DNA from: Ulvibacterium marinum
Lineage (GTDB): Bacteria > Bacteroidota > Bacteroidia > Flavobacteriales > Flavobacteriaceae
Assembly (NCBI RefSeq): GCF_003626755.1
Contig: NZ_RBCJ01000004.1
Span: forward strand, 434,001-498,000
Reading direction: 5' to 3'
DNA length: 64,000 nucleotides
The first letter of the stretch is position 1; every line of letters starts with the position of its first letter. Both the position numbers and the translations under genes were made by a program. The notes under the pieces are model-generated. The model ran no database searches, had not been told where the DNA came from, and saw only the letters and a program-made list of their open reading frames with translations. This document shows positions 1 through 28,205 of the stretch, in pieces.

Positions 1-620
1 ACGGCACCAATACCAGCAGTACTGGCTTCTCCGCCGGAAGGCAATGGATATCCATCCAAGACAATCAAGGGTTCGTTATTCCCACTTATGGAGTTTGATC
101 CACGTATTCTAATGGTAGAACCACCTCCGGGTTCACTCGATGTATTAACTACACTTACCCCGGCAGCTCTTCCTTGAAGAGCCACATCAAATGTTGGTAC
201 TGGGGTAACTGCAATGTCATTCCCCTTTACTGAGGCTACAGATCCAGTTAAATCGGAACGTCTTTGCGTACCGTATCCAGTAACTACTACCTCATCAAGG
301 GCTTGGGCATCTTCAATCAGTACCACACTAATAACAGATTGCCCGGCAACTGGAACTTCCTTTGAACTATAACCTACATAAGAGAAAACCAATGTTTGTG
401 ATCCGCTCCTTAATGTAATTTCATAATTTCCGTCAAAATCGGCAACCACGCCATTGTTAGTTCCCCTTTGTACGATATTTACCCCGGGTAGAGGCTCTCC
501 ATCTTCTGCGGTTACCGTACCGGTAACAACATTGTCTTGCGCATAAGTTCCAAAAGTGAACAATACGCAGAAGAAAAATAATGTCTTTTTCAGGACATTT
601 CCATAATTTCTGTGTTTCAT
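1..620 (-). CDS. SusC/RagA-type TonB-dependent receptor, N-terminal part (runs off the left edge)
   Basis: This is the beginning of an outer-membrane TonB-dependent transporter that imports oligosaccharides together with a SusD lipoprotein. Reading leftward from an ATG at 620, I see a Sec signal peptide ending in TYAQ, then a CarboxypepD_reg-like domain (VTGTVTAEDGEPLPGVNIV). It is followed by the SusC-type TonB box and start of the plug (LDEVVVTGYGTQRRSDLTGS) and plug motifs (LQGRAAGV, IRIRGSNSI, LIVLDGYPLP). About 206 codons are present of a family that usually has about 1000. The gene is the first of a leftward unit and has its own copy of the locus operator at 710-733. A susD partner would lie to the left, outside the window. 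Confidence 0.93.
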   Translation of the reverse strand, partial: MKHRNYGNVLKKTLFFFCVLFTFGTYAQDNVVTGTVTAEDGEPLPGVNIVQRGTNNGVVADFDGNYEITLRSGSQTLVFSYVGYSSKEVPVAGQSVISVVLIEDAQALDEVVVTGYGTQRRSDLTGSVASVKGNDIAVTPVPTFDVALQGRAAGVSVVNTSSEPGGGSTIRIRGSNSISGNNEPLIVLDGYPLPSGGEASTAGIGA

Positions 621-918
621 AATTGATTTTGTTAGGTAGTTTATTACGTCTGATTTTAACAAAAAGTTTTGCTTTTCTTGGCTCAATATTAAAAGGACTA
701 TATTGAAAAGGCATCCTGTACTGTACTGTTCAAATGGGAGATTGATAATTTTTTTGTTAAAAAAATAGGGATTCTGCATCAAGGGATTTGATGGATATTT
801 TTAATCCAAAAAGATATTTAGAAATGGTTTTTCGCCACGGGAACAAGGTGACTTAAACTTACCCCAATACCCCAATAAATGATATATTGCAGCTTATGGA
901 AGGGATTAAGAGTATGAA
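621..918. promoter_or_regulatory. intergenic region upstream of susC
   Basis: This gap separates the end of the rhamnose catabolic operon from the start of susC. It is AT-rich and contains the operator copy at 710-733. I see no convincing gene in it; an 85-codon open frame across 457-714 is antisense to the susC start and is not credible. Confidence 0.5.
710..733 (-). promoter_or_regulatory. locus operator site a (upstream of susC)
   Basis: Read on the minus strand, the core is CAGTACAGTACAGGATG, preceded by TTGAA. It matches the motif CAGnnnWGTRCAGGATR shared by five sites in this locus. It lies about 90 bases upstream of the susC start, in the same orientation relative to its gene as the other four copies. 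Confidence 0.7.
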
Positions 919-2343
919 CTATTTTGAGTAATCGAAAATCTTATTTCTATTTAGGATTCCCTTTGGGTCCAGAGCGTATTTTATGGTTCCCATCAAACAT
1001 AATTCTTCCGAAGATCTACACAAGTTCAGATACGGTTTTTTGTCAATTCCGATACCATGTTCGGCGGATACAGATCCTGCAAGATTCTCTATTGGACCGT
1101 ATATAATCGTGTTGACCCTATGACTTAATTCCCGGCTTGATTTGTTTTTACCCACAAGAAAATGGATATTGCCATCGGCTACATGGCCATGGGCAAAATA
1201 ATTTTCAACTTCAGGCATTTGTTCCAGCTCTTTAAAGACATGGTCTACATAGTTGCCTATCTCCCCCAAGGGAAGGCTAACATCATAATTTTGCACGTTG
1301 TTGCATTGGGATACCAAAACATCCACATCTTCTCTTATTTTCCAGAAAAGCTCCAAATGTTGCCCAGATTGTGCAATGGTCGCATCCAAGACCATACCTT
1401 CTGTCAAGGCTTCTTCCAGTAATTCCTCCAACCTGTTATGATCTTTTTCATAATCGCTCCCCAAAGTTTCCAAAAGCACATAGTATTTGTAGCCATCGGG
1501 TAGAGGTTTGGGAATGTCCGTATTCGGTGAGGTCATCGCTATAAAATTTTGTTCCCAGAGCAACTCATAGCCACTGAGCGTACCGGCAAGACCGGCATCC
1601 ATAAATTTTAGGAATGCCACGACCCTATCAAAATCGTTTAAGGCCACAAAGGCACTGTTTCTGCTTTTTGGTTTTTGCTGTAATCTTAAAACGGCCTTGG
1701 TGATAACACCTAAGGTTCCCTCCGAACCGATGAATAATTGTTTTAGGTCATACCCTGAATTATCCTTGATGATTTTCTTCATGGATGAAATGACGGTACC
1801 ATCTGCCAAGACAGCCTCAAGGCCAAGAATCAAGTTTCTTGTCATTCCGTATCTAAAAACACGGAGCCCGCCAGCGTTTGTGGCTATCACACCTCCAATT
1901 TGCGCAGAGCCCTTCGCACCGAAAGTCATGGGAAAGAGTAAATCCTCTTCTTCTACCGCTTGATGTATACTTTCCAAAATGACCCCGGCCTGAACGGTAA
2001 TGGTGCGACTAGATGCATCCAATTCTTCAATGGCATTCATTTTTTCCATGCAAATGACCACTTCCTCCGGATTGGTTTCGGTGCTTCCTACCAAATTGGT
2101 CAGTCCTCCATGCACAACAACAGGTTGGTGGTGCTTATTGCAAATGGCCAAAATATCGGATACCTCTTGGGTCGTTTTTGGAAAAAAGACAGCTTTCGCC
2201 AACAATGGCTTGTCCATTTCCCAAATATGGCAATATCTTTCCTTGACCTTTTCCCCGACCAGTACTTGGTCCGTTTTAAGAATTTGTTCGATTTCTTTAA
2301 TAAGTTTTTCCTTCATAATTGTAAGGTTGACCCTTTTAATCAT
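919..2343 (-). CDS. FAD-linked oxidase, GlcD / D-lactate dehydrogenase-like
   Basis: Flavin enzyme of the vanillyl-alcohol-oxidase/GlcD family, which oxidises 2-hydroxy acids such as glycolate, D-lactate or D-2-hydroxyglutarate. The FAD-binding loop is seen at about residues 76-86 (VVVHGGLTNL) and a second FAD region at about 150-182 (GGVIATNAGGL). Family C-terminal metal-site motifs follow: HGHVADGNIHF near 390 and SAEHGIGIDKK near 425. Length (474 aa) is usual. The start at 2343 overlaps the preceding stop by four bases (ATGA); an internal ATG at 2316 (MKEKLIKE) is an alternative start. It is the last gene of the rhamnose operon, so I infer it oxidises a hydroxy acid produced during L-rhamnose breakdown, such as lactate. 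The actual substrate is not evident. Confidence 0.85.
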   Translation of the reverse strand: MIKRVNLTIMKEKLIKEIEQILKTDQVLVGEKVKERYCHIWEMDKPLLAKAVFFPKTTQEVSDILAICNKHHQPVVVHGGLTNLVGSTETNPEEVVICMEKMNAIEELDASSRTITVQAGVILESIHQAVEEEDLLFPMTFGAKGSAQIGGVIATNAGGLRVFRYGMTRNLILGLEAVLADGTVISSMKKIIKDNSGYDLKQLFIGSEGTLGVITKAVLRLQQKPKSRNSAFVALNDFDRVVAFLKFMDAGLAGTLSGYELLWEQNFIAMTSPNTDIPKPLPDGYKYYVLLETLGSDYEKDHNRLEELLEEALTEGMVLDATIAQSGQHLELFWKIREDVDVLVSQCNNVQNYDVSLPLGEIGNYVDHVFKELEQMPEVENYFAHGHVADGNIHFLVGKNKSSRELSHRVNTIIYGPIENLAGSVSAEHGIGIDKKPYLNLCRSSEELCLMGTIKYALDPKGILNRNKIFDYSK

Positions 2344-3185
2344 TGTGATCCTGCATTGACCGTATTTTCGCCCAAGCCTTCCGGACCCATTGCAAGGTAT
2401 CCGCCATCAACGGCCAAATTGGTACCAGTTATAAAAGATGCATCATCACTCAACAGGAAGAGTACTGGTCTGGCGACCTCAATTGCATGACCCATCCGCC
2501 TCAACATATGGAAACGGCCCCAAATCGAATCCCATTTTTCGCGACCTCCACCATCGAGATTAGCGGCCTTATCCGTTTCTTGGGTCCATATCCATCCCGG
2601 ATCGATACTGTTCACCCTTATATGGTCCGGTGCCAGGTCCAAAGCCTGACATTTGGTCAATTGGTGTACCGCCCCTTTTGAGGCATTATAGGTCCATCGG
2701 TCTTTTTGTGCAATATGCGCGGAAATACTTGAAATATTGACAACGGCACCACCGCCTGCCTTCTTCATATAGGGCCATGCCTCCTGAACCATTCGGGCAT
2801 ATCCCAAGGGACCTACGGTAAAACTTCGCATCCAATCCCCCGTTTGGGCATGGATTCCTGCAGCGGTAAAAGAAAAAGCATTGTTGACTAGAAAATCAAT
2901 TCTTCCATAGCGGTCCATCGTCTTGGCTATACAAGTCTTACAAAAATCCCCATCTCCCATATCGCCTCTTAAAAAAACCGTATCATAACCTTTCTCAACA
3001 TCGCTTTCCTGAATAGCGTTTCCGGTATCGCATAAATCGCTAAATAAAACCTTACCCCCTTCTTTACAGAATTCTTCGGTAATCGCACGGCCCAGTCCCG
3101 AGGCACCGCCCGTAATGATAGCCACCTTTCCCTTAAACCGATTCGGGACTGACTTATGATCGATGTTGTGAAATGTGTTGTTCAT
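2340..3185 (-). CDS. short-chain dehydrogenase/reductase, probable L-rhamnose-pathway dehydrogenase
   Basis: Classical SDR of 281 aa. The nucleotide-binding motif TGGASGLG lies at residues 25-32, the NNA motif at about 101-103, and the catalytic Ser/Tyr/Lys set at S152 or S153, Y166 and K170 (YNASK). The C-terminal region PVLFLLSDDASFITG is also typical. It lies between a sugar-lactonase-type amidohydrolase (12-base gap) and an FAD oxidase (4-base overlap), downstream of a rhamnose transporter. In the non-phosphorylating rhamnose and fucose pathways, SDRs act either as sugar 1-dehydrogenase or as 2-keto-3-deoxy-acid dehydrogenase. Either role fits, and sequence alone does not decide between them. 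Confidence 0.85.
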   Translation of the reverse strand: MNNTFHNIDHKSVPNRFKGKVAIITGGASGLGRAITEEFCKEGGKVLFSDLCDTGNAIQESDVEKGYDTVFLRGDMGDGDFCKTCIAKTMDRYGRIDFLVNNAFSFTAAGIHAQTGDWMRSFTVGPLGYARMVQEAWPYMKKAGGGAVVNISSISAHIAQKDRWTYNASKGAVHQLTKCQALDLAPDHIRVNSIDPGWIWTQETDKAANLDGGGREKWDSIWGRFHMLRRMGHAIEVARPVLFLLSDDASFITGTNLAVDGGYLAMGPEGLGENTVNAGSQ

Positions 3186-3197
3186 ATTGATAATGAA

Positions 3198-4049
3198 TTA
3201 TAAGTTATAAAAATGAATCGCATTCATTTTGAAAATATCGTTACGTTGCTGTTCGCTCAGCCCTCCCGTAAGGGACACGGCAGTCTCGAACCATCTGGAC
3301 CAAGAGGATGCGCGCAGTGCATGGGGCCAATCACTACCCCATATCAATCTTCCAGGGCCAAAAGTTTCAATAATGACCTCCGAATATGGTTTTAGATCCT
3401 CAATTTGCCAACGGTCCAAATCAGCATTGCAAACAAGATTGGAAAATTTACAGTAATGTGGACCTGAATCCGCAAAGGCTTTTAAATATGTCTTCCAGGG
3501 TTGTAATTCCCTTGCGGCAATTTTGGGATTTCCAACATGATCCAGGATAAATCGTGTATCGGGACATTGCTCCACAAGTTTTAAAACAGCTGGAAAATGT
3601 TTGGGGGCTATGGTCAGTTCAAAATGCAGATTATTTTGGCCCAAAAGTCGGATGCCTTCTACAAAATCCGGCCGCAGGCAAAATTTGATGTCCTCTTCGA
3701 GTTGAATAAGTTGTCGAACGCCTTTTATTTTAGGATTCCTTGTAAATACTTCCAGTATTTCGCTAACTGCGCTCCCTTTGTGTATTGGTGCCCAAGGTAC
3801 GATGCCCGCAAGTCTTGAATCCTTGTCGGCAATGGCCGATACCCACTTTACCTCTTCCAGAAATTGTGATGGCCTGCATTCCGCTTGAACGAAAACCATT
3901 TTTTCGACTGGTTGCCCCGCACTGGCATCATCATAATCCGTCATAGAAAAACTGCGGTTTATTTTTGGAAAACGATTCAGCCATGGATAGTCCAACTGCA
4001 CTAAATCCCAGAGATGGATATGGGCGTCAACGATAGAAAAGTTCTTCAT
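3198..4049 (-). CDS. amidohydrolase of the sugar-lactonase type (L-rhamnono-/L-fucono-lactonase-like)
   Basis: Metal-dependent TIM-barrel hydrolase of the COG3618 type, 283 aa. Metal-binding HIH is at residues 10-12 (VDAHIHLWD), LDHVGNP at 169-175, and the late metal Asp in WGSDWPH at 237-243. Members next to sugar dehydrogenases open 1,4- or 1,5-lactones of L-fuconate or L-rhamnonate. Here it follows rhaT by 16 bases and precedes an SDR, so the likely step is hydrolysis of the lactone made from L-rhamnose. The dehydratase needed next is not in this window. Confidence 0.82.
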   Translation of the reverse strand: MKNFSIVDAHIHLWDLVQLDYPWLNRFPKINRSFSMTDYDDASAGQPVEKMVFVQAECRPSQFLEEVKWVSAIADKDSRLAGIVPWAPIHKGSAVSEILEVFTRNPKIKGVRQLIQLEEDIKFCLRPDFVEGIRLLGQNNLHFELTIAPKHFPAVLKLVEQCPDTRFILDHVGNPKIAARELQPWKTYLKAFADSGPHYCKFSNLVCNADLDRWQIEDLKPYSEVIIETFGPGRLIWGSDWPHALRASSWSRWFETAVSLTGGLSEQQRNDIFKMNAIHFYNL

Positions 4050-4065
4050 ATATTTAAACTATCTT

Positions 4066-5103
4066 TTACTTGTTCATCATGTAAGTGGAGTACCCCAACA
4101 GGGAAAATGCAAGGCATAATACCAAAACTCCGACCAACATGGTGCTTTGAGGCCTTGAACCTGAATTCCTCCATTCCCCGCCTAATGCCCCCGCCAAGTT
4201 TCCCGCCAATATCGATGCCAATATCATCATAGGAAAACCGGCGTAAGCACCATAAGGCCCCATGGCATTTGCCCCAATACCATAGACGATGATACCTCCA
4301 GGCCATGCCAAGCCCATAAAAAGTGCGCCCAGCCACTCTCGCGAGAAACGGCCTTTTCCCAAGTTTTTCAATGTTCCTTTTTTTAACATCATATAGAAAC
4401 CATAAATGGTATTAATGGAGAAATTTGCGGTAAAGACCAAGCTCCAAACAGCAAAACTTGTCGCATAATCGGGCACTTCCATATGTGATGCCTGAGTGGT
4501 TATAGGGCTGCCAAAAATAAAAGCAAAGTTGACAGCGGCCGAAAGAATACCAGAAATAAGGCAAAAAAGAATCCCAGCCTTAAAAGACTTTTTGAACCTA
4601 TGTGTTGTTGCCTTATTATCTTCAATTTGTAAAGCTTGTTCCCTTTTTTGGCCGGCACGCGATATAATGATTACACCAAAAATCATAATTGCAATGGCAA
4701 GTATTAAGATGTAACCGCCCAGGGTGAAGAGTTTGGCAGGTTCAAAAACTGTCAAAGGCACAATAGAACCGAAAACATTGATAAGCCCCATTAGTATGGA
4801 GACACCAAGGGCCATACCCAATGCCGCTATTGCCCTGCCCCAATAAATACCGCCGATTCCCCACGCTATACCGCTTACGATAACCCCAATAAAAACGGGA
4901 TTCGGAATCGGAGCATACAATTGGGCCAAATCACCTACATAATAAGATGCCAAGGGCCAGGGCAACAATAACAGCGCAAGAAGTGAGCCCACGCCCCAAA
5001 TATTTTCAAATTCCCAAGATTTTACTTTCGTCACAGGAATGGAAAAGAGTCCCTCCAATACGCCTCCAAAAGCCACTAAAACTACTCCGATAAAAAATGA
5101 CAT
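4066..5103 (-). CDS. rhaT: L-rhamnose/proton symporter RhaT
   Basis: Inner-membrane sugar transporter of the RhaT family (drug/metabolite transporter superfamily), 345 aa with about ten hydrophobic segments. Recognisable family features are the N-terminal GVVLVAFGGVLEGLFSIP, the SGIAWGIGGIYWGRAI segment and FGSIVPL. It is the first gene of a four-gene leftward operon and has operator copy d about 105 bases upstream. It should bring rhamnose released in the periplasm into the cytoplasm for the downstream dehydrogenase and lactonase. Confidence 0.9.
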   Translation of the reverse strand: MSFFIGVVLVAFGGVLEGLFSIPVTKVKSWEFENIWGVGSLLALLLLPWPLASYYVGDLAQLYAPIPNPVFIGVIVSGIAWGIGGIYWGRAIAALGMALGVSILMGLINVFGSIVPLTVFEPAKLFTLGGYILILAIAIMIFGVIIISRAGQKREQALQIEDNKATTHRFKKSFKAGILFCLISGILSAAVNFAFIFGSPITTQASHMEVPDYATSFAVWSLVFTANFSINTIYGFYMMLKKGTLKNLGKGRFSREWLGALFMGLAWPGGIIVYGIGANAMGPYGAYAGFPMMILASILAGNLAGALGGEWRNSGSRPQSTMLVGVLVLCLAFSLLGYSTYMMNK

Positions 5104-5206
5104 ATTCTTTTAAGCTTATATTGAAAGTTTCAAGATCCATTTTCAAGGGACAACTTGTTGAATTCTGGTATATCTTTATCGGCAAGTTACTGACTTTGTG
5201 ATGTCT

Positions 5207-5230
5207 ACTATCCTGTACTTTCCTGCTACT
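5207..5230 (-). promoter_or_regulatory. locus operator site d (upstream of rhaT operon)
   Basis: Minus-strand core CAGGAAAGTACAGGATA, matching CAGnnnWGTRCAGGATR, about 106 bases upstream of the rhaT start and oriented toward it. It lies in the 223-base gap between rhaT and the end of the GH78 gene, which otherwise shows no gene. Confidence 0.65.
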
Positions 5231-5326
5231 GAATCCTATTTATAAAATGGGAAAGAATCTTACTATTACTAAATTGAAAATAAAGGGTCTTTGATTTTAT
5301 GAATTTTACCATTAGCGGTACTAAGA

Positions 5327-8179
5327 TCAAATCCGCGATTGGAACCGATAGCTTCCCGACCCAACTTCATATATTTTATATGCCCCTTTTTGCTTTACAA
5401 ATTGTATCAATTCGGAATTAATGGTCCCGCCACCTTCCAATACGGTATTATCTTCTAAAGATGGTACATAAACCTTGGCCCGTGTATTTACCGGAATTTC
5501 GACGTCCAAGGTAAAGGTTGATTCCTTGACGGACCAAGTAGAAACGATTTTGCCGTTGATGGAGCCATATTCCCCATGAACATTCGATAACGAACGATCG
5601 CCCAATTCGGGTCTTATGATGATATGCTTGAAACCTGCATCTTCAGTATTGATCCCCGCCATATCGCTGAACAGAAATTGCGAAAAGGCACCAAAGGCAT
5701 AGTGGTTGAAAGAGTTCATTTTAGCGTTCATTTCGCCGTTAAAACCATTTTCGGGGGTATAGCTGTTCCAGCGTTCCCAAATCGTTGTTGCACCATGCTT
5801 AACTTGAAACCCCCAACTGGGATAGTCTTTTTTCAATACTATTTGATAGGCCAGATCCGAACGGCCTATAGCGGACAATGCCGGTAATAGTTGCCTAATT
5901 CCCAAAATACCCGATGAAGGTAGATTATTGTTCTCCTCCAGAAGTTTTACCAAATGTTTCCCGGCTTTTTCTTTTAGGTCATCTGGAAGAATATCAAAAT
6001 AAATAGCAGTGGCATAAGCAGATTGTGTATGGCCTGTAAAGCCTTTTTCACCCTCAAAATAACCCGCTCCATCGCCATAGGCAGTTTCATCGATTATGAA
6101 TTTCCCATTCCCGTCCAGATAATGGTCGATAAATGCGGCAACAGAAGTGTTATAAGTAGTTAGATAATAATCGGCCTTCTCTTTTTTTCCGATAGTTGCA
6201 CTCATTTCGGCCATACTCTTTAGGGCATATTGATAGTACATGGATGCCATAATATCATGTGCGAGATTTTTATCGGTCATGGACAACCAATCGCCAAAAC
6301 CACCCTTTGGGTTTACCTCTGTCCAGGAGTTTTCGGGATAGAACTTGTGCTCCTTACTCTTTTCGATATGATAATCCATAAACTGGGTCATGGAATCATA
6401 GTGATCTTTAACGATTTTTGTGTCCTTATAGAATTTATAAGTGTTGTACGGTACCATTATGCCGGCCTCCATCCAGCCTGGGGAGTACCACACCAATTCT
6501 GGATAAGGTCTCGGCGCAAATGTGGAATACGGGCCAAAATCGTATTGCGCATCGCGTACATCGGCAAACCATTTGGCATTGAATGCTCCAAGGGTGGCAT
6601 TGTAAAGGGCGGATTTGGAAAATATCTGGACATCACCGAGCCATCCCAAACGTTCATCCCGTTGAGGGCTATCAGTAGGTACCTCCATAAAATTGGAGCG
6701 CTGTGTCCAAATCACATTCTCAAACATGCGGTTCAGGGTCTCATCCGAAGAAGTAAAGGAACTGACCATGGGAATAGAAGACCCGAAAGCAATTCCGGTG
6801 ATCGTGTTTTTGTCCGGTTTGTTTTTAAGTCCCGTGACCTCAACATATTGAAAACCGTGATACGTAAATTTAGGTTCCCATTCTTCCATTCCCTCGCCCT
6901 TGAGAATGTAGGTATCAGTTGCCCTTGCAAATCGCAAGTTCTCCGTCATCAAGGAGCCATCTGGATGGAGTCTTTCCCCATAACGCAAAACGATCGTGTC
7001 ATTTTTGTCCCCACGAACCTTAAGTCTGGCATGTCCTGCAAAATTCTGTCCCAGATTAAAAACGTAAATGCCTTTTTTGGGCTGATTAATTTCCACAGGC
7101 TCCAATTCATCATAGGGTTGAATACTGTTTCCTGGATAAGCCTGTAGCATGCCTTCGGTGCCTTCATGCAAATATACATTGGCCCAATTCTGGTCATCAT
7201 AATCAGAAGTATTCCATCCCGTTAGCTCCAGGTTGGCATTGTAACCGGCTCCCATAAGCAAATCGGCATAGACCAATGGGCCTTTGCTGGCCTTCCAACT
7301 TTCATCTGAGACAATGGTCTCTTTTTTTCCATCTTCATATTCTATTTCCAACTGGCAGAGTAAGGCCGGATGCAACCCGTACAATTCCCGATTTCTGGGA
7401 TTAGATAATTCCTTCGGGCCTACATAACCGGCATACCAACCATCACCCAAAATACCGCCAAGTGCATTTTTGCCTTGGTCGAGGTGGTCGCTTACATCAT
7501 AGGTTTTATAGTAGATGCGTTTATTGTAGTCGGACCATCCTGGGGCCAACAAGTCATCTCCGATTCTTTTTCCGTTCAAAGACATTTCAAAAACGCCCAG
7601 GGAGGTCACATATAAGCTAGCTCTTTTGATTTTTCCCTGTACTGAAAATGGTTTTCTCAAATAAGGTGCCGCAGGCAGGTGCAATGGATCTTTGGGGTCA
7701 TTGTCCTCTGTTTTAAAACCTATCCATTTGGCTTTCCAATCTTGTTCGTTCAGCAGTCCCATCGTCCAGAAACCTGTTTCGCTCCAGTCCGATTCCACAT
7801 CGTTTTCGTCCCAAATCTTGATTTTAAAATAGCAGCTTTGTCCGGATTTCAACAGAGTACCGGCATATCGAATCTGTGAGTTTTGATCGGAAATTAATTT
7901 CCCGGAATCCCACAATAGACCGCTTTCTTTTTCCAGAGCTTCCTCCGAAGTGGCCACCTTTATTCTATAGGCAGACTGTTTCTTGTTTTTTCCTTTCGAA
8001 GACATGACCCAACTTATTCTTGGGGTAGGATTATCAATACCCAATGGGTTATCCAAATATTCCACGGTAACAGTATCGATTATTATGCCCTTGGTAAGGT
8101 CTGTATCTGTACAAGAAATTAATAGTAGAAAGATAAAACTCGGTAAGAGGGTTTTTAAAGAGGTGGTCTGAATTTGCAT
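5327..8179 (-). CDS. GH78 alpha-L-rhamnosidase, lipoprotein
   Basis: Full-length (950 aa) inverting alpha-L-rhamnosidase that removes terminal L-rhamnose from oligo- or polysaccharides. A lipoprotein signal ends at C23 (LLISC), so it is anchored in the membrane, facing the periplasm or surface. The order is a fibronectin-like N-terminal domain, Bac_rhamnosid_N (about 160-340), the concanavalin-like domain (about 350-460), the (alpha/alpha)6 catalytic domain, and a C-terminal beta domain. Catalytic-site motifs are DSPQRDERLGWLGD (503-516) and, later, the ATTIWERWNSY segment carrying the second acidic residue. It is a single leftward gene with operator site b about 54 bases upstream, divergent from the sulfatase-GH106 unit. 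Confidence 0.95.
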   Translation of the reverse strand: MQIQTTSLKTLLPSFIFLLLISCTDTDLTKGIIIDTVTVEYLDNPLGIDNPTPRISWVMSSKGKNKKQSAYRIKVATSEEALEKESGLLWDSGKLISDQNSQIRYAGTLLKSGQSCYFKIKIWDENDVESDWSETGFWTMGLLNEQDWKAKWIGFKTEDNDPKDPLHLPAAPYLRKPFSVQGKIKRASLYVTSLGVFEMSLNGKRIGDDLLAPGWSDYNKRIYYKTYDVSDHLDQGKNALGGILGDGWYAGYVGPKELSNPRNRELYGLHPALLCQLEIEYEDGKKETIVSDESWKASKGPLVYADLLMGAGYNANLELTGWNTSDYDDQNWANVYLHEGTEGMLQAYPGNSIQPYDELEPVEINQPKKGIYVFNLGQNFAGHARLKVRGDKNDTIVLRYGERLHPDGSLMTENLRFARATDTYILKGEGMEEWEPKFTYHGFQYVEVTGLKNKPDKNTITGIAFGSSIPMVSSFTSSDETLNRMFENVIWTQRSNFMEVPTDSPQRDERLGWLGDVQIFSKSALYNATLGAFNAKWFADVRDAQYDFGPYSTFAPRPYPELVWYSPGWMEAGIMVPYNTYKFYKDTKIVKDHYDSMTQFMDYHIEKSKEHKFYPENSWTEVNPKGGFGDWLSMTDKNLAHDIMASMYYQYALKSMAEMSATIGKKEKADYYLTTYNTSVAAFIDHYLDGNGKFIIDETAYGDGAGYFEGEKGFTGHTQSAYATAIYFDILPDDLKEKAGKHLVKLLEENNNLPSSGILGIRQLLPALSAIGRSDLAYQIVLKKDYPSWGFQVKHGATTIWERWNSYTPENGFNGEMNAKMNSFNHYAFGAFSQFLFSDMAGINTEDAGFKHIIIRPELGDRSLSNVHGEYGSINGKIVSTWSVKESTFTLDVEIPVNTRAKVYVPSLEDNTVLEGGGTINSELIQFVKQKGAYKIYEVGSGSYRFQSRI

Positions 8180-8231
8180 AACAAAGGTTTAAAATAGGAC
8201 TGCAACAAAAAAAGGGTTTCGGACAAGAAAA

Positions 8232-8255
8232 TGCATCCTGTACTACCCTGCCAGA
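8232..8255 (-). promoter_or_regulatory. locus operator site b (upstream of GH78)
   Basis: Minus-strand core CAGGGTAGTACAGGATG, matching CAGnnnWGTRCAGGATR, about 54 bases upstream of the GH78 start. Together with site c it forms a divergent control region in which each copy points toward its own gene. Confidence 0.65.
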
Positions 8256-8280
8256 CTGGTATGTCCTGAAAATATCTAAA

Positions 8281-8304
8281 ACAACCAGTACAGTGCAGGA
8301 TGAA
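8281..8304 (+). promoter_or_regulatory. locus operator site c (upstream of sulfatase-GH106 unit)
   Basis: Plus-strand core CAGTACAGTGCAGGATG, about 80 bases upstream of the sulfatase start at 8383. It differs from site a at only one position within this 17-base core. Confidence 0.7.
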
Positions 8305-8382
8305 CACATCCATTGTTTTGACTTTTTTTACATTGAATAGATTAAAACAAAGCCTGAAATCAAAAAAATAGAACGAAGCCCA

Positions 8383-9984
8383 ATGAATAAAAAAGCACTA
8401 CTGTTATTTTTATTTTGTTGTGCCTTTTGTTTACCAATCTTACAGGCGCAGCAAAAAGATAGGCCCAACATTATTTTGATCGTTGCGGACGATTTGGGAT
8501 ATAGTGACCTCGGTTGTTACGGTGGCGAAATCAAAACCCCCAATTTGGACAAGATGGCAAACAAGGGGCTACGGCTCCCCAATATGTACAACGCGGGTAT
8601 GTGCGTAATTTCACGTAGTTCACTTTTAACGGGAAGATGGTGGCCCAAAACGGGGTATGGTATTGAAAAAGACCCGAATATTGCCCAAAAGCTAAAGGCT
8701 TTAGGTTATCGAACCGGTCTTGTCGGCAAATGGCACCTCAACGGGGAGCCCAATGATAAGGGGTTTGACTACTTTTTTGGATTTTTAGGGGGCTATTCAA
8801 GCTATTTTGAAGGAAGCAAGGACTATCGGTTGAACAAGGAGCCCTTTAGCGGTTTCGGTAAAGATTTTTATAGTACAGACGCATTTTCTGATCATGCTAT
8901 CGAATTTGTTAAAAACAAGGGCAATACCAATGACCAACCCTTTTTCCTCTACCTGAGTTATCAAGCTCCACATAATCCGCTACAGGCCTCCAAAGAGGAA
9001 ATCATGACCTACAGAGGGACCTATTTAAAAGGGTGGCAGGCCATTAGGGACGCCCGTATCAAAAACCAGATTAAATTCGGAATTATCGACGCTGCTACGC
9101 CTTTGCCCGAATTTCCAAAAAACCTACCGGATTGGGACACATTGACTCCGGAACAAAAGGACTTGGAAGACCTGCGCATGTCTGTCTATGCTGCAATGGT
9201 GGAGCGTATGGATAAAGGCATCGGGAAACTTATGCAAGCCTTGGAAATAAACGACCAAGCCGAAAACACCTTGATCTTGTTCATGAGCGACAATGGTACC
9301 GATTCCTTTTCGGTCATGGACGATGTGATGCTGGAAAGGGGGCTTTTACCTGGGGATGTTGGTTCCAACTACCAACCCGGCACCGGCTGGGCCTATGCCA
9401 GTGTGGCCCCTAACAGGCTTTATAAAATCAGCCAACATAATGGTGGTGTAAAAACCGGGGCTATCGCGTATTGGCCAAAAAGCATCAAAAAACCGGGAGG
9501 TCTCCACAAGGAACAACTCCATATGGTGGACGTAATGCCCACAATTTTGGATTTAGCAGGTATTGTACAAAAAGAATCTCGGTCTTCGGAAAGATTGGCC
9601 GGAAAATCATTTGTTCCTTTATTAAAGGGAAAGGTGTTCAAAAGAAAGTCGCCTTTGTATTTTCAGTTTATGGACAATCGTGCCATCCGAACAAAAAAAT
9701 GGAGTTTGGCAGAAGTTGATGGAGCCGGTTGGGAGCTGTACAATATCAAAAAAGATCCGCTTGAAACAAACGATCTTTCCAAAATCCTTCCAAAAACGGT
9801 GGATAAGCTTAACACGGATTGGCTCCATTGGTGGATTACGGAAAGTGGTGAAACAACGTATACACCAAAAAGTACATCAACAAGTATACATTATACAACT
9901 CAAGGAGATAGAGGGACAGGCGATAAGTATACACCTTCGGCAATGCCCGGAAACCTTAAAGCAAAATATCAAAAGAAACCCTAA
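8383..9984 (+). CDS. sulfatase (S1 family) with an unusual formylglycine motif
   Basis: Exported sulfatase of 533 aa with a Sec signal peptide ending in LQAQ. Most of the S1 active site is present: DDLGYSD near the N-terminus, GKWHLNGE, YQAPHNP, FMSDNG and HNGGVKTG. The formylglycine site reads C-V-I-S-R from C74, where the usual pattern is C-x-P/A-x-R, so the +2 residue is Ile. It should remove sulfate esters from the target glycan if the cysteine is still converted. It is first in a two-gene unit with the GH106 gene (41-base gap) and is controlled by operator site c. Confidence 0.92.
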   Translation: MNKKALLLFLFCCAFCLPILQAQQKDRPNIILIVADDLGYSDLGCYGGEIKTPNLDKMANKGLRLPNMYNAGMCVISRSSLLTGRWWPKTGYGIEKDPNIAQKLKALGYRTGLVGKWHLNGEPNDKGFDYFFGFLGGYSSYFEGSKDYRLNKEPFSGFGKDFYSTDAFSDHAIEFVKNKGNTNDQPFFLYLSYQAPHNPLQASKEEIMTYRGTYLKGWQAIRDARIKNQIKFGIIDAATPLPEFPKNLPDWDTLTPEQKDLEDLRMSVYAAMVERMDKGIGKLMQALEINDQAENTLILFMSDNGTDSFSVMDDVMLERGLLPGDVGSNYQPGTGWAYASVAPNRLYKISQHNGGVKTGAIAYWPKSIKKPGGLHKEQLHMVDVMPTILDLAGIVQKESRSSERLAGKSFVPLLKGKVFKRKSPLYFQFMDNRAIRTKKWSLAEVDGAGWELYNIKKDPLETNDLSKILPKTVDKLNTDWLHWWITESGETTYTPKSTSTSIHYTTQGDRGTGDKYTPSAMPGNLKAKYQKKP

Positions 9985-10025
9985 GACTTTCCTGAAGTCG
10001 GCAGAATCAAAACAACACTGTTTCT

Positions 10026-13000
10026 ATGAAAAAATCGAACATCGTAAAAGCCTTACCTTCAATAATTATCGCCTGGAGTATTTTGATACAATGCGATTCA
10101 TCCGAAAAAAAGCAACAACCCGACTTTGCGAAAATTAAAACGGATTTTGTAACCCCTTCAGACGATAATACCTTATGGTGCTATTGGTATTGGATCGGAG
10201 ATGACATCTCAAAAGAAGGTATCACCAAGGATTTGGAGGCCATGAAGGAAGCAGGTATCGGTGGGGCGCTGATCGGCAACATAAATCCTGAGGAAAAAGA
10301 TGGAAAAGTCCCCATGCTAAGTGAAGCATGGTGGGACCATATGGTACATGCGGTAAATGAGGGCAAACGCATCGGTGTGGACATCGGCGCTTTTAATTGC
10401 CCGGGGTGGAGCCAGTCTGGCGGGCCATGGGTAAAACCCAATATGGCCATGCGGTATATGACCTACTCCGAAGCTAAGGTAAAAGGAGGCCAAAAGGTGA
10501 TAGTAAAACTGACCAAGCCTACTCAGGAGTTTCAAGACACCTATGTTTTGGCCTTTCCATCGATTGCGTCCGAAGAAAAAACACTCTCCTTACGTAATGC
10601 AAGAATCGATATTACACCGGGTATTAAAAATGCCAACCAATTAATTGATAGGGATACCGCAACGGTGGCCGGTTTTTCAAAATCGGTCGAAAACTATCAA
10701 ATCGACTTTATTTCGGACGAGCCCCTTAAAGCAAGAAGTTTACGAATCGTCCCTGCAAAAGATGAAATTAAGGTAGCGTGCGAGGTTTTTGCAAAAACGG
10801 ATGGAACCTACAAATCGATAAAATCATTTACTATAGACCGAAGCAAGTTAAGTCCCAATGTAGGACCTGATAAATATGCGCCCATATTGGTTGCATTACC
10901 AGAAACTGAATCCAAAAATTTTAGATTAAAGTTTAAAGCTCTGGGTGGGGTATTTCAGTCCAACACCTTTCCAAATGCTAAATTGGATGTGTGGAACTTA
11001 TCTGAAATAGTGCTGTCAGAAGCAGTTGGTTTGGAGGACTATTCCGAGAAGGCCCTGGGTAAAATGCACCCAACACCATTTCCTGCATGGGATAGTTATC
11101 TCTGGGAGCAACAGGTAGCGATTAAAGACAATTCCCTTACGGTAAATAAAGCCGATGTTGTGGATATCAGTGATAAAATGGATTCCGATGGAAGGCTTTC
11201 ATGGAACGCGCCTGCTGGGGAATGGACAATTCAACGCTTTGGTATGACCCCCACCGGAACTAAAAACGCTCCTTCTGCACCACAAGGAAAAGGGTACGAA
11301 ATCGATAAGATGAGCGAAGAACTTATCCGCTTTCATTTTGAACAGTTTATTGGAAAATTCATTGATAGGATTCCAGAGGAAAATAGGAGTGCTTTCAAAT
11401 ATGTAATAGCTGATAGTTACGAAATGGGCTCTCAAAACTGGACCGATACTTTTCAACAAGAGTTTAAAGAAACCTATGGGTACGATCCAAAACCATTTTT
11501 GCCTACCTATACCGGTAGGGTGGTTCAGAGCGTTGAGGCATCAGACCGTTTCTTATGGGATGTTAGAAGATTGGTGGCCGATAAAGTTGCCTATGAATAT
11601 GTAGGGGGCCTCCGTGAAGTAAGCAATGAGCATAATTTGCAACTTTGGTTGGAAAATTATGGCCATTGGGGTTTCCCATCGGAATTCTTGATGTACGGCG
11701 GGCAGTCCAACCTGGTTTCGGGTGAATTTTGGAACGAAGGATCTCTTGGAGACATTGAATGTAAATCGGCCTCATCTGCGGCCCATATTTATGGGAAATC
11801 CAGGGTATCTGCAGAAGCTTTTACAGCTGCCAAAAGAAGTTATGTAAGACATCCTGCATTGTTGAAGAAACGCGGAGATTGGTCATTTACAGAGGGTATC
11901 AACCATTTTGTACTCCATTTATATATACACCAACCTGACGATAACAGAGTTCCTGGGGTCAATGCCTGGTTCAGCACGGAATTCAATCGCCATAATACGT
12001 GGTTCAAGAAATCCAAGACTTATTTTGACTACCTAAGACGGTCCCAGCATTTATTGCAACAGGGAACGTATGCTGCTGACATCTGCTACTTTATTGGTGA
12101 AAACGCACCTATAATGACGGGTGCCCGTAATCCGGAGATTCCTGATGGCTATTCCTACGACTACATCAATGCCGAGGTAATATTGGAACGCTTATCGGTA
12201 AAAGATGGCAAGTTTGTATTGCCTGATGGTATGTCGTATAGCCTAATGGTGCTCCCACCATTTGAGACCATACGGCCCGAACTATTGGAAAAGATCGAAT
12301 CCTTGGTGGCCCAAGGAGGAAAAATATATGGTAAGGCTCCGCAAAAATCTCCTAGCCTTGAAGGTTATCCTAAAGGTGATGCCCGTGTAAAGGAAATGGC
12401 AGATAAAATGTGGGGGCAGAATACGGATGAGATAAAAAATTATGGTAAAGGCTTTATTGTTGAAGGGTTAGGCCTTCAAGAGGCCTTGGACAAACTAGGA
12501 ATTGCAAAGGATGTTGATTTAGGTAAAGATGCCCCCGTGCTATGGACACATCGTAAATTGCCCGGTATGGATATTTATTTTCTGACCAATCAAAGCGAAG
12601 ATAAAATTAACATTTCCCCTTCTTTTAGGGTAAAAGGATCAAAACCGCAATTATGGAATGCAGCTACAGGAGAAATCAGGATGCTAAACGAATTCACTGA
12701 AGACAATGAGCGTACCACAGTTCCCATCAACATGGAGCCACTTCAAAGTTGGTTCTTGGTTTTTACCAATTTTGAACCTAAAGGGATAGACATAGGTTAT
12801 GGAGCGAACTTTCCTAATCACAAACTCATATCCACTCTTGAAAATCCTTGGAAGGTCGATTTCCAGAATAAAGACATCGGTCCTGCCGAAATCTTGGAGT
12901 TTGATACTCTAATAGACTGGTCGTCCCAGGAGAATGATAGCATCAAATACTACTCCGGCACTGCAACATACACCTCAACCTTCAACTATGAAAAAGATTC

Positions 13001-13307
13001 TGAAACCAAGGATGTATTCATAGATCTTGGCAATGTAGGTGTTATTGCCTCGGTTAAAGTCAATGGCAAAGATATAGGTACAACATGGATCGCTCCCTAT
13101 AGACTAAAAGCCACAAATACCATTCAAGAAGGGGAGAACACCATTGAAGTTGAGGTGGTCAACGTTTGGCGTAATCGAATCACGGGCGACAAAACTATTT
13201 CAGAAGCAGCGCGAACTACTTGGCTGAATGTTGATGATATCTCTCCCGATGAAGAGCTTATTCCTTCGGGTTTGCTCGGGCCAGTAACTATTCAAATCAT
13301 TGAATGA
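10026..13307 (+). CDS. GH106 alpha-L-rhamnosidase, lipoprotein
   Basis: Large (1093 aa) alpha-L-rhamnosidase of family GH106, which acts on rhamnose-containing side chains or oligosaccharides. A lipobox ends at C23 (LIQC). The family N-terminal signature is visible (CYWYWIGDDISKEGITKDLEAMKEAGIGGALIG), split here only for description. The TIM-barrel segment includes VIADSYEMGSQNW near 459, a glutamine-amidotransferase-like region starts near 685, and a C-terminal beta-sandwich (FIDLGNVGVIASVKVNG) follows. It is paired with the preceding sulfatase, suggesting sequential desulfation and rhamnose release. Confidence 0.9.
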   Translation: MKKSNIVKALPSIIIAWSILIQCDSSEKKQQPDFAKIKTDFVTPSDDNTLWCYWYWIGDDISKEGITKDLEAMKEAGIGGALIGNINPEEKDGKVPMLSEAWWDHMVHAVNEGKRIGVDIGAFNCPGWSQSGGPWVKPNMAMRYMTYSEAKVKGGQKVIVKLTKPTQEFQDTYVLAFPSIASEEKTLSLRNARIDITPGIKNANQLIDRDTATVAGFSKSVENYQIDFISDEPLKARSLRIVPAKDEIKVACEVFAKTDGTYKSIKSFTIDRSKLSPNVGPDKYAPILVALPETESKNFRLKFKALGGVFQSNTFPNAKLDVWNLSEIVLSEAVGLEDYSEKALGKMHPTPFPAWDSYLWEQQVAIKDNSLTVNKADVVDISDKMDSDGRLSWNAPAGEWTIQRFGMTPTGTKNAPSAPQGKGYEIDKMSEELIRFHFEQFIGKFIDRIPEENRSAFKYVIADSYEMGSQNWTDTFQQEFKETYGYDPKPFLPTYTGRVVQSVEASDRFLWDVRRLVADKVAYEYVGGLREVSNEHNLQLWLENYGHWGFPSEFLMYGGQSNLVSGEFWNEGSLGDIECKSASSAAHIYGKSRVSAEAFTAAKRSYVRHPALLKKRGDWSFTEGINHFVLHLYIHQPDDNRVPGVNAWFSTEFNRHNTWFKKSKTYFDYLRRSQHLLQQGTYAADICYFIGENAPIMTGARNPEIPDGYSYDYINAEVILERLSVKDGKFVLPDGMSYSLMVLPPFETIRPELLEKIESLVAQGGKIYGKAPQKSPSLEGYPKGDARVKEMADKMWGQNTDEIKNYGKGFIVEGLGLQEALDKLGIAKDVDLGKDAPVLWTHRKLPGMDIYFLTNQSEDKINISPSFRVKGSKPQLWNAATGEIRMLNEFTEDNERTTVPINMEPLQSWFLVFTNFEPKGIDIGYGANFPNHKLISTLENPWKVDFQNKDIGPAEILEFDTLIDWSSQENDSIKYYSGTATYTSTFNYEKDSETKDVFIDLGNVGVIASVKVNGKDIGTTWIAPYRLKATNTIQEGENTIEVEVVNVWRNRITGDKTISEAARTTWLNVDDISPDEELIPSGLLGPVTIQIIE

Positions 13308-13355
13308 AAATTAAATAAAGGTCATTTAAGAAAAATGATACTTCTGAATAACATC

Positions 13356-13379
13356 TTGAACAGTATTGTGCAGGATAGA
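13356..13379 (+). promoter_or_regulatory. locus operator site e (upstream of the nine-gene operon)
   Basis: Plus-strand core CAGTATTGTGCAGGATA, preceded by TTGAA as in site a. It lies about 66 bases upstream of the ATG at 13445 and points toward it. Confidence 0.7.
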
Positions 13380-13444
13380 TAAATCTATTCCAAATCCTAT
13401 TTTTATAAAAATTGCCTTATAGGCTAGTTATACAACCGTTAAAC

Positions 13445-15199
13445 ATGAAGCATATTATTTGGATTGCATTGGTATTTTTTGTCTCCCAATCCATCAATGC
13501 CCAGCTGCCTCCTGTCTTTGGAGAGGAATATGAAGGCAAAGCAACAACGTCGGATATGGTAAAGACCTATCTAAAGCCGCAACGTATTGTTTGGCAGTCC
13601 GATAATTCTGGAAAATCTATCAAAAATGTTGAGACACTCATAAAAAAAGGGAATGGTCAAGTTGCCGTAAATGACCAAAATCTATTTCGGTTTATCAGCA
13701 CGGAAGCTGAAAGGCCAGGAATCTTGTTAGATTATGGAAAAGAAATCAACGGGGGTGTAAAAATTTCCATGGGTATTAGGAAAAGTAAAACACCCTTAAA
13801 ATTAAGGCTTCGTTTTGGGGAATCGGTCGGCGAGGCGATGTCCGATATTGGTGGAAAACAAAACGCTACCAACGAACATTCGTTGCGCGATTTTATAATA
13901 GAAGTCCCTTGGCTGGGAAGTATCGAAGTTGGAGAAACCGGCTTTCGCTTCCTGCGTATTGATGTCGTCGAAGCCAACGAAAATGCCCCAATAAAATCTA
14001 TTGATGCAGCTTTTGTATACCGCGACATTCCCTATCTCGGTTCATTTGAAAGCAACGATGAAAGACTGAATCAAATTTGGATGACGGGTGCCTATACGGT
14101 ACACCTCAACATGCAAAATTATCTCTGGGACGGTATCAAACGAGATCGCCTGGTATGGGTCGGGGATATGCATCCCGAGGTCATGACCATCAATACTGTT
14201 TTTGGCAACCATGAAATCGTTCACAAGAGTTTGGATCTTGCCAGGGATCAACATCCCTTGCCCCAATGGATGAATGGCATTAGTTCGTATTCCATGTGGT
14301 GGTTACTCATTCATAAAAATGCATATGACTACCACGGCGACCTGGGTTATTTGAAGGAGCAGGAAAACTATATGATCGGACTTTTAGATCAACTGAGCAT
14401 GTTCATCGATAAGAGTAATAAAGAAATATTGGACGGTGGGCGATTCATGGATTGGCCTACAAGCGAGATTCCGGAGGCGGTTCATGCCGGCCTACAAGCG
14501 ATGATGGTCATGACCTTTGAGGCCGGAAGTGAAATCATGGGCATTTACCAAAAGAGTGAACTTCAGAAGAAATATCTAAAAGTAGCGGAAAGGCTCCGTA
14601 AGCATAAGCCTAAGGGCAACACAACTAAACAGGCCGCCGCATTGATGGCTATGGCGAACTTGGAAGATGCAAAAAAAATCAATGAACAAATCTTGACCAA
14701 AGATGGTGTACAACGTATGTCTACTTTTTACGGCTACTACATTTTAGAGGCTATGGCCAAGGCCAATGATTATAAGGGTGCGTTAAAAGTAATCCGTGAT
14801 TATTGGGGTGGCATGCTCGACTTGGGCGCCACTACCTTTTGGGAAGATTTTGACATTCTCGATACCAAAAATACAGGAAGGATCGATGAACTACCCCTTC
14901 CGAACAAGTTTGATATCCACGGCGATTTCGGGGAATACTGCTACGTAGGTTATAGACATAGTTTTTGCCATGGTTGGGCAAGTGGTCCTACTTCATGGTT
15001 AAGTCAGCATGTGCTGGGCATACATGTTATGGATGCCGGGGAAACCGTTCAAATCACTCCCCATTTGGGCGATTTACGATGGGCCAAAGGAAGTTTTCCC
15101 ACCAAATATGGCCCGCTGAAAGTTAGCCATACCAAGAATGCGGATGGTACCGTAAAAACGGAAATAGACGCACCTGACGGACTAACCATAATCCAGTAA
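13445..15199 (+). CDS. GH78-like alpha-L-rhamnosidase, short form
   Basis: Exported 584-aa protein whose C-terminal half is the GH78-type (alpha/alpha)6 catalytic domain. Visible motifs are YLWDGIKRDRLVWVGDMHPE (equivalent to the acidic loop of GH78), GATTFWEDFD, and the late SFCHGWASGPTSWLSQHVLG. The separate N-terminal beta domains of full-length GH78 enzymes are reduced to a single beta-rich region. I chose the ATG at 13445 because it starts a clear signal peptide (MKHIIWIALVFFVSQSINAQ); an upstream TTG at 13412 adds only a charged leader. It is first in a compact nine-gene operon running to 27943. Confidence 0.85.
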   Translation: MKHIIWIALVFFVSQSINAQLPPVFGEEYEGKATTSDMVKTYLKPQRIVWQSDNSGKSIKNVETLIKKGNGQVAVNDQNLFRFISTEAERPGILLDYGKEINGGVKISMGIRKSKTPLKLRLRFGESVGEAMSDIGGKQNATNEHSLRDFIIEVPWLGSIEVGETGFRFLRIDVVEANENAPIKSIDAAFVYRDIPYLGSFESNDERLNQIWMTGAYTVHLNMQNYLWDGIKRDRLVWVGDMHPEVMTINTVFGNHEIVHKSLDLARDQHPLPQWMNGISSYSMWWLLIHKNAYDYHGDLGYLKEQENYMIGLLDQLSMFIDKSNKEILDGGRFMDWPTSEIPEAVHAGLQAMMVMTFEAGSEIMGIYQKSELQKKYLKVAERLRKHKPKGNTTKQAAALMAMANLEDAKKINEQILTKDGVQRMSTFYGYYILEAMAKANDYKGALKVIRDYWGGMLDLGATTFWEDFDILDTKNTGRIDELPLPNKFDIHGDFGEYCYVGYRHSFCHGWASGPTSWLSQHVLGIHVMDAGETVQITPHLGDLRWAKGSFPTKYGPLKVSHTKNADGTVKTEIDAPDGLTIIQ

Positions 15200-15202
15200 A
15201 AA

Positions 15203-16735: not shown

Positions 16736-16747
16736 AAGTAAAAACCT

Positions 16748-19648: not shown

Positions 19649-19677
19649 AAATCAATAACCGTGGAAATATACAATCG

Positions 19678-21771: not shown

Positions 21772-22868
21772 CCTTAATTCATCAAAAATCACGGTTAAAA
21801 AAACCGTTTTTAATCGTACTGATTGTCTTCTTGTCAATATTTGTTGTTTCTTTTTCAATTCCTGAAAAGGAATATCGCATTTATCAATTTCCAAAAAACA
21901 AGATTCCCCGAATCGATGGCGAATTTTCCGATTGGGCACAGGTTCCAGAATCGTATACCATAGGTCTTGACCAACTCATGGACACACGTTTTGGCAATGG
22001 CACCAATCTCAATCCAAAGGATTTTGATATTTCCGTAAAGGTCGGTTGGGTAAAAGATTTGAACAGGCTATACTTCTTTTTGGAAATGAAAGATGACTAT
22101 TGGGATTTCGACAATCCAGCACTTGGTCAGGATATTTTTGAACTCGTCGTTGACGGAAATCTATCCGGTGGTCCTTTTATTAAACAGCATAATGGCAACA
22201 AAGACATAATTTCCTTGGAAGAGCTCCACTTTAAGGGTCATGGGGCGCATGCCCAGAACTACCATATTTTCACACCGGTACAAAATAAAGAGGAGGTCAT
22301 GATTTGGGGCAATACCCCATGGATAAAAGAATTTCCTCACTACAATGCCGCATACGACTATAATTTCAAACATTCGGAAAGTGGCAAATTAAAAATGGAG
22401 TTTTGGATTACCCCTTTTGATCATGCCGCGGTCGAAGGTTTTCAAGTATCAACGATAACCAAATTGAAAGAAAATGACGTCATAGGGCTTTCTTGGTGTT
22501 TCCTTGATTTTGATGGGGAAAAATGTGAATCGTTCATGAATTTGGCACATGACACAAAAATGATTTACGATGCCTCTTACCTCAACATTTTTCGATTGAT
22601 GCCCTTGGAAAAGCAATTTGTAAAAGCTATTGACGCCGATTGGTCTTTTGTTGAGATGGACCGTAATCAACGGTGGTTTCAGTTTAAAGATGAATCAATA
22701 GGTAATATTACAAAATGGCATTGGGATTTTGGGGATGGAAATTCTTCGAATGATCAACATCCATCCCACAAATATGATAAGGCCGGGGAATGGACCGTAA
22801 TACTTACCATCGAGGGACCTGAAGGAAAGTCAGTGCGTTCCAAAGTGTGGGATGTCGTGACGAAATAA
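21768..22868 (+). CDS. CBM9-like carbohydrate-binding protein with PKD domain
   Basis: 366 aa, with an N-terminal membrane or signal segment (FLIVLIVFLSIFVVSFS). A CBM9-like/DOMON-type domain follows (IPRIDGEFSDWAQVP, then LYFFLEMKDDYWDF and DIFELVVDGN). The C-terminus is a PKD domain with the signature WHWDFGDGNSSNDQHPSHKY. No catalytic domain is seen, so it probably binds the glycan or supports a surface complex. Its start overlaps the preceding stop by four bases (ATGA). The IDGxFSDW module recurs in the C-terminal part of the next gene. Confidence 0.75.
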   Translation: MTLIHQKSRLKKPFLIVLIVFLSIFVVSFSIPEKEYRIYQFPKNKIPRIDGEFSDWAQVPESYTIGLDQLMDTRFGNGTNLNPKDFDISVKVGWVKDLNRLYFFLEMKDDYWDFDNPALGQDIFELVVDGNLSGGPFIKQHNGNKDIISLEELHFKGHGAHAQNYHIFTPVQNKEEVMIWGNTPWIKEFPHYNAAYDYNFKHSESGKLKMEFWITPFDHAAVEGFQVSTITKLKENDVIGLSWCFLDFDGEKCESFMNLAHDTKMIYDASYLNIFRLMPLEKQFVKAIDADWSFVEMDRNQRWFQFKDESIGNITKWHWDFGDGNSSNDQHPSHKYDKAGEWTVILTIEGPEGKSVRSKVWDVVTK

Positions 22869-22876
22869 CAGCACTT

Positions 22877-24700: not shown

Positions 24701-24707
24701 TACAGTA

Positions 24708-25025: not shown

Positions 25026-25028
25026 AGT

Positions 25029-26501: not shown

Positions 26502-26506
26502 ACATC

Positions 26507-28056: not shown

Positions 28057-28205
28057 ATTTTATTTGAATTTATATGAATTAAAAACCCAATAAATACGGG
28101 GGTTTTCAGCGATTAGTTGTATATTTAGGTACATTTAAGACCATAAAAAACCACATTCTGCGTGCAAACTGCGTGCACATGTGCACGCAGTTTTTAACAT
28201 TTATC

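Follow-up and report, generated by a model that had tools for sequence, protein, structure and literature searches.

Regulators of rhamnose catabolism are described in PMC3870299 as members of the AraC, DeoR or LacI families; the DeoR-type RhaR motifs given there are direct repeats with a period of 10-11 bp, and the word GntR is absent from the main text. In Bacteroides thetaiotaomicron, RhaR is AraC-type and FucR is the GntR protein (PMC3878776). GntR-family sites are usually palindromes, with direct-repeat exceptions for MocR/GabR, NanR, NagQ and FarR, and one described regulator, AraR, is a GntR/LacI chimera (PMC4494728). The reference list of PMC9296495 cites a GntR protein that represses alginate genes in Zobellia. 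Here we describe a short motif in the Flavobacteriaceae species Ulvibacterium marinum that is very likely the regulatory site of a rhamnose/rhamnan regulon, together with a candidate regulator of GntR type. The window referred to below is a 64,000-nt stretch of the 5.9-Mb genome (NCBI RefSeq assembly GCF_003626755.1, contig NZ_RBCJ01000004.1; C9:434001-498000 of genome G000 in our numbering).

The locus resembles each of these systems in part. It shares control of L-rhamnose catabolism, and RhaEW, with the RhaR regulons of Bacteroides, Bacillales, Rhizobiales and others, but the regulators there are AraC, DeoR or LacI proteins, whereas the candidate here is GntR-type (PMC3870299). Bacteroides FucR (BT1272), which belongs to the GntR family and regulates a deoxyhexose pathway in the same phylum, can be likened to it on those counts (PMC3878776). 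AraR of Bacillus subtilis joins a GntR-type helix-turn-helix (HTH) to a LacI-type sensor, as the candidate here does by its predicted fold, and it also controls sugar and polysaccharide genes. In the GntR family a palindrome is typical (PMC4494728), whereas here we find a 10-bp direct repeat inside the promoter, where it would probably serve activation. MocR/GabR, NanR, NagQ and FarR provide the precedent for GntR proteins reading direct repeats, although their sensors are aminotransferase-like (MocR) or of HutC/FadR type and their repeat sequences are different. Our literature search, for which subscription papers were mostly beyond reach, found neither a GntR rhamnose regulator nor such a motif. 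Because rhamnose regulators of three families, the AraR chimera and direct-repeat exceptions among GntR proteins are all known, the parts of this system are of known kinds, and their combination looks new within the literature searched. Comparison of sequences is the source of all that follows on the motif, its geometry and conservation, its co-occurrence with a regulator, and the co-variation of its half-sites with the recognition helix.

Results

Our scan of the window with the pattern CAGNNNWGTRCAGGATR gave five exact matches, against a mean of 0.00 in 100 dinucleotide shuffles. With up to three mismatches there were 29 matches, against 16.5 expected and 26 in the largest shuffle. On the minus strand, the operator at 712-728 (CAGTACA-gta-CAGGATG) precedes susC-susD-GH78 genes that continue past the left end of the window, the one at 5209-5225 (CAGGAAA-gta-CAGGATA) precedes rhaT, amidohydrolase, short-chain dehydrogenase and FAD oxidase genes, and the one at 8234-8250 (CAGGGTA-gta-CAGGATG) precedes a GH78 gene. 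On the plus strand, the operator at 8286-8302 (CAGTACA-gtg-CAGGATG) precedes sulfatase-GH106 genes, and that at 13361-13377 (CAGTATT-gtg-CAGGATA) a long row of GH78-like, sulfatase and no-match genes. The distances to the start codon are 91, 105, 54, 80 and 67 bp for the copies at 712, 5209, 8234, 8286 and 13361, with a susC start at 620 and an ATG at 13445 as the chosen starts. A first-pass annotation of this DNA had reported five sites, all pointing at the genes they precede from 54-106 bases upstream, and no copy elsewhere in the window. Our measurements confirm this, with distances of 54-105 bp and with the absence of further copies holding for exact matches.

The operator consists of two half-sites, CRGnAYA-GTA-CAGGAYR, that form 7-bp direct repeats 10 bp apart, or about one helical turn. 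Over 93 sites the identity between half-sites averages 4.91/7 at an offset of 10 and at most 2.53/7 at other offsets from 6 to 15, a test that is partly built in because the search pattern constrained both halves. An inverted repeat was rejected, the best such arrangement reaching 3.22/7 against 4.91/7, and the operator is not the palindrome typical of the GntR family. The first-pass annotation was right about direct-repeat half-sites and wrong about their spacing, which it put at 11-12 bases and which measures 10 bp.

Of 91 sites, chosen by the downstream half-site with no part played by the -7 box, 67 have a housekeeping -7 box (TAnnTTTG with at least 5/6 letters) exactly 20 bp downstream of the operator. 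Other spacings gave 0 boxes at +19 and at +21 to +29, nine at 18, and seven each at 37 and 40, and ten shuffles gave 0-2 at +20. In the window, such boxes stand 20 bp after the operators at 712 (TAATATTG, 684-691, minus strand), 8234 (TTTTTTTG, 8206-8213, minus strand) and 13361 (TATTTTTA, 13398-13405, plus strand), each with 5/6 conserved letters. The box after the operator at 8286 (TTTTTTTA, 8323-8330, plus strand) is weak, with 4/6 letters, and that after 5209 is poor, with 2/6 letters at +20. In Flavobacterium psychrophilum the TAnnTTTG box spans -12 to -5 (PMC9723704), so the operator would occupy about -49 to -33 with its centre at -41. The copies do lie upstream of genes as first annotated, but not simply as nearby operators: the element is embedded in the promoter and keeps a set distance to the -7 box.

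The -33 promoter element is TTG. Within about -39 to -28 it occurs in 1 of 80 promoters, a count that is partly built in since the motif itself fills most of that stretch. Tandem arrays of 3-7 decamers were listed eight times, all before susC, and 8/8 end 20 bp before the -7 box. The susC1 promoter of U. marinum itself has four decamers, and it is the lower pair, 411872, that adjoins the -7 box. The longest array seen has seven head-to-tail CAGGAYA-type decamers before a susC (L053 2808-2874), the last ending 20 bp before TATATTTG. When period and spacing were tabulated together for 20 of the 80 loci of relatives introduced below, period 10 gave 19 at 20 bp and 18 at 22 bp, so this table is weak by itself.

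Beyond the window, all eight exact copies in the genome fall in one 45-kb stretch, C9:402948-447377, three of them left of the window. One-mismatch copies on other contigs number seven, of which six overlap an open frame of at least 120 aa; this is a mechanical test, and the site at window 712, although upstream of the susC start, also sits in a stretch free of stop codons. In the left flank, variant sites precede a sulfatase gene (406008, minus strand), a DUF5722 gene (406039, plus), a sulfatase-GH78 gene (424279, minus), another sulfatase gene (424340, plus) and a gene for a 363-aa protein (425982, plus). With variants included and each promoter counted once, 12 gene promoters carry a site. 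The targets include genes of rhamnose catabolism and uptake: rhaEW, RhaT, GH78, sulfatase-GH106 and susCD. The motif is not scattered over the genome, its exact copies all lying near rhamnose genes, and the proposal that it marks a rhamnose/rhamnan regulon is upheld as very likely. Since sites can be followed to about 31 kb left of the window, the claim that the five mark the locus's only promoters does not hold. Nor does the window bound the locus, which extends about 39 kb to its left. Scattered regulon members were looked for with a half-site plus -7 box and rejected, at 13 matches genome-wide against 13 in the reversed control.

As relatives we took the best 80 of 129 loci in a contig scan, at 68-88% identity. 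Their 108 listed sites stand before rhaEW (51), susC (20, ten being more distant copies in tandem arrays), rhaT-like genes (10), sulfatase-GH78 genes (6), permease genes (3), other matches (2) and match-less open reading frames (ORFs; 12), or have no ORF (4). A site lies 48-83 bp upstream of rhaEW in 54 of the 63 loci with a readable start, the other 17 having no rhaEW start in the fetched stretch. These sites score above every shuffle (20 per locus) with a matrix that was trained on the same sites. The nine loci that lack the rhaEW site are Flavobacterium-type, and there the rhaT-like gene carries a site instead. Conservation upstream of orthologous operons, which the first-pass annotation had made a test of its proposal, is therefore seen in most loci.

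That annotation had also described a regulon without any regulator gene in view. The regulon stands, and a candidate regulator gene lies about 30 kb left of the window at C9:403079-404125. The N-terminus of its 348-aa product is a GntR-type winged HTH (PF00392, residues 17-80, 45 bits against a cut-off of 27), which the AraR HTH (4egy) matches at E 2.6e-6. The sequence shows no Pfam sensor domain and reaches no NCBIfam model at cut-off. By fold, the sensor is predicted to be LacI/GalR-like: the best PDB match of an AlphaFold2 model of the 88% identical Arenibacter homologue L024 (pLDDT 85, pTM 0.65) is LacI, with E 1.4e-13 and TM 0.55. Divergent from the regulator gene is rhaEW, which scores above cut-off as the NCBIfam bifunctional aldolase/dehydrogenase, and an operator sits in the gap 55 bp before it. 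A rhamnose-isomerase-like gene (rhaI) and an FGGY kinase gene follow rhaEW, then genes for an FMN dehydrogenase and a permease; the NCBIfam rhamnose models fall below cut-off for isomerase-like gene and kinase alike. About 15 kb away from the candidate regulator, at C9:386945, is a gene of the LacI family. In five genomes (G069, G089, G144, G158 and G166) two close homologues of the regulator stand side by side, and these might form mixed dimers.

Motif and regulator occur together across the family. Of 249 genomes, 55 contain an exact CRGNAYAGTRCAGGAYR, 58 a close homologue of the regulator (E at most 1e-100) and 68 rhaEW. The exact motif is present in 50 of the 58 regulator genomes versus 5 of the 191 others (Fisher p ~5e-38, which is a guide only because related genomes are not independent). 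All five matches in regulator-less genomes fall within open frames of 291-678 codons. The eight regulator genomes without an exact match all have a variant upstream of rhaEW, as read by eye, that of G159 being weak. Among the 68 rhaEW genomes, the exact motif is found in 50/58 with the regulator versus 1/10 without (p 4e-6), and that single match lies in an open frame away from rhaEW. The reversed pattern of CRGNAYAGTRCAGGAYR occurs in two of the 249 genomes, with one match each. These counts point to the unnamed protein with a GntR-type HTH and a predicted LacI-like sensor as the reader of the motif.

The half-sites also change with the recognition helix. In our HTH alignment, RhaR-type helices (SRDTVEKAY, or EKAY) pair with CAGGATA. 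The helix SRDTIVRAY of G216 (VRAY) goes with CAGAACGgtaCAGAACG, with TAGATTTG at +20, and is the one clean case for CAGAACG; that of G121, SRDTVVKAY, goes with CAGAACA, so that these variants are represented by few cases. Regulators with SRDT(V/I)(L/I)xA(F/Y) go with CTRGTAGnnnCTRGTAG and, where examined, adjoin aldose epimerase, galactokinase, galT or GH53 genes. At up to one mismatch, 26/33 loci with these regulators and 0/80 RhaR loci contain the CTRGTAG pattern. The CAGGATA pattern is found in 76/80 RhaR loci and in one of those 33, although part of the 76 is chance because one mismatch was allowed in loci of up to 21 kb. In a table of 60 paralogue loci, period 10 has 13-30 matches versus 4-14 at periods 8, 9, 11 and 12, and no single spacing is favoured. 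A GntR fragment on contig C8 has no convincing decamer site. In some loci the CTRGTAG repeat stands before the GH53 galactanase gene or the regulator itself (L114-L123, L174-L197 in part), and it may mark a second, similarly built regulon; we found no name for it.

A thirteenth site in the genome, at C9:420540-420556 on the minus strand (L022 6430-6640), has a -7 box, TAAACTTG, at +20 and no ORF behind it. It is located 47 bp past the stop codon of sulfatase-GH78 and ahead of a strong hairpin and T run (z -4.7), a layout as for a predicted RNA of about 65 nt that would start near C9:420507 and share the terminator of the mRNA. The same-genus genome G002 (91%) has an identical site and box, and retains the hairpin with two changes; the other 58 relatives searched for this region gave only two short, weak matches. 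The adjacent gene fuses a sulfatase and a GH78 rhamnosidase in a single 1176-aa protein (C9:420604-424134, minus strand).

The genes served in the window begin at its left end with the N-terminal part of a SusC-like TonB-dependent receptor (3-620, minus strand; Pfam Plug and CarbopepD_reg_2). RhaT, an L-rhamnose/proton symporter (4066-5103, minus), is above cut-off for Pfam PF06379 and below it for the NCBIfam RhaT models. Behind rhaT, on the same strand, are genes for an amidohydrolase (3198-4049), a short-chain dehydrogenase (2340-3185) and an FAD-linked oxidase (919-2343; Pfam PF01565/PF02913). The GH78 alpha-L-rhamnosidase gene occupies 5327-8179 (minus), and the sulfatase and GH106 alpha-L-rhamnosidase genes occupy 8383-9984 and 10026-13307 (both plus). 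Nine plus-strand ORFs at 13445-27943 form an operon by their spacing: the first is GH78-like, sulfatases start at 15203, 25029 and 26507, and a PKD protein at 21768. Three large proteins of this row (16748-19648, 19627-21771 and 22847-24700) have no match in a Pfam search that covered the row except ORF 24708, and they are candidates for new enzymes or binding proteins. At the right edge, the locus adjoins genes for a tyrosine integrase and a MobA/VirD2-type relaxase (window 28173-32024), and a tRNA search of the window found none.

Discussion

We propose, with a probability of about 75%, that the motif serves as operator for a rhamnose-responsive class-II-type activator, and that this activator is the GntR-HTH/LacI-like-sensor protein encoded at C9:403079-404125, here called RhaR. 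That RhaR binds the motif, that it activates, and that its inducer is L-rhamnose or a close catabolite are points we infer from sequence. At class II activator promoters, CRP binds at -41.5, on palindromic sites. The operator described here keeps a constant distance to the -7 box that would likewise centre it near -41.5, where it may overlap and replace the upstream promoter element; it differs in being a direct repeat, and by analogy the proposed contacts would be with polymerase. When L-rhamnose or a close catabolite is present, a RhaR dimer would sit on the two repeats beside RNA polymerase, centred at -41, the operator taking the place of the -33 element and typically ending 20 bp before the sigma-A -7 box. 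RhaR would then switch on catabolism (rhaEW, rhaI and the kinase), uptake (RhaT and SusCD), rhamnosidases and sulfatases, and at those susC promoters that have extra decamers in tandem, additional RhaR subunits would be able to load upstream.

An important caveat to this model is that the sign of regulation would follow from the position of the operator, and a repressor could cover the same stretch. Repression by the same protein is indeed the main rival: it would block polymerase at the -33 region and be released by sugar, like AraR of B. subtilis. AraR, whose architecture is the closest among named regulators, controls arabinose genes and is called a repressor in the titles of its PDB entries, and a protein bound over -49 to -33 would hinder polymerase too. 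However, repression would leave the spacing free to vary, yet 67/91 sites have the -7 box at exactly +20, and the tandem repeats grow upstream while their downstream end stays in place. With TTG in the -33 region of 1 of 80 promoters, a count partly built in by the motif, these promoters may be weak without help. We thus regard activation as the likelier sign and repression as unlikely.

It is quite improbable that the GntR protein is a bystander and that the motif is bound by another regulator, be it an AraC-type protein, the LacI-type protein at C9:386945 or a response regulator. Direct repeats are described for Bacteroides AraC-type hybrid regulators and for AraC- and DeoR-type RhaR elsewhere, and the LacI-family gene is near, but across the 249 genomes the motif follows the GntR homologue, and its half-sites change with that protein's recognition helix at a constant 10-bp period. 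The repeats reported for AraC proteins have a period of about 21 bp; a GntR-type regulator with a 10-bp repeat does not fit an AraC-type rhamnose regulator (RhaR/RhaS). The LacI-type protein and the other candidates were rejected solely through this co-occurrence and co-variation. A -35-like element of an alternative sigma factor would also keep a fixed distance to a -7 box, but the box here is the housekeeping TAnnTTTG, the decamer is repeated in up to 7 units, and the element co-varies with the GntR helix, which makes this reading hardly credible.

Several observations weigh against the proposed model of RhaR and its operator. The -7 match is weak at the rhaT genes (2/6), the 363-aa gene (3/6), and sulfatase-GH78 and sulfatase-GH106 (4/6 each). 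The 10-bp repeat is retained in the galactose-type paralogues, but with a loose distance to the -7 box. Among eight further VEKAY-type paralogue fragments (~1.4-4 kb), two contain the motif, and a 32% paralogue on contig C6 has no such site before its susC-like gene. A single half-site plus -7 box does no better than the reversed control, with 5 of the 13 matches in the C9 cluster, and site 420540 has no gene behind it.

A broader model is possible, and we hold it tentatively, at somewhat less than even odds. RhaR may belong to a Flavobacteriia lineage of GntR/LacI-type sugar regulators that act as class-II activators on head-to-tail decamers one fixed step before the -7 box. The helix would determine which decamer is read: CAGGATA for rhamnose, CAGAACG in a sister clade and CTRGTAG beside galactose genes. 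The number of decamers, up to 7 at one susC, would tune promoter strength. The regulon may also include a small RNA expressed from the 3' end of the sulfatase-GH78 transcript (C9:420540).

Taken together, these observations assign a candidate regulator and an exact promoter code to the use of rhamnose and rhamnan/ulvan-type polysaccharides in a major group of seaweed degraders. The code (a 10-bp repeat, 20 bp, and a -7 box) makes regulons readable from sequence, and the pairs of helix and half-site render specificity directly testable. If activation is true, a family whose sites are typically palindromic would gain, in RhaR, an activator that reads direct repeats embedded in the promoter.

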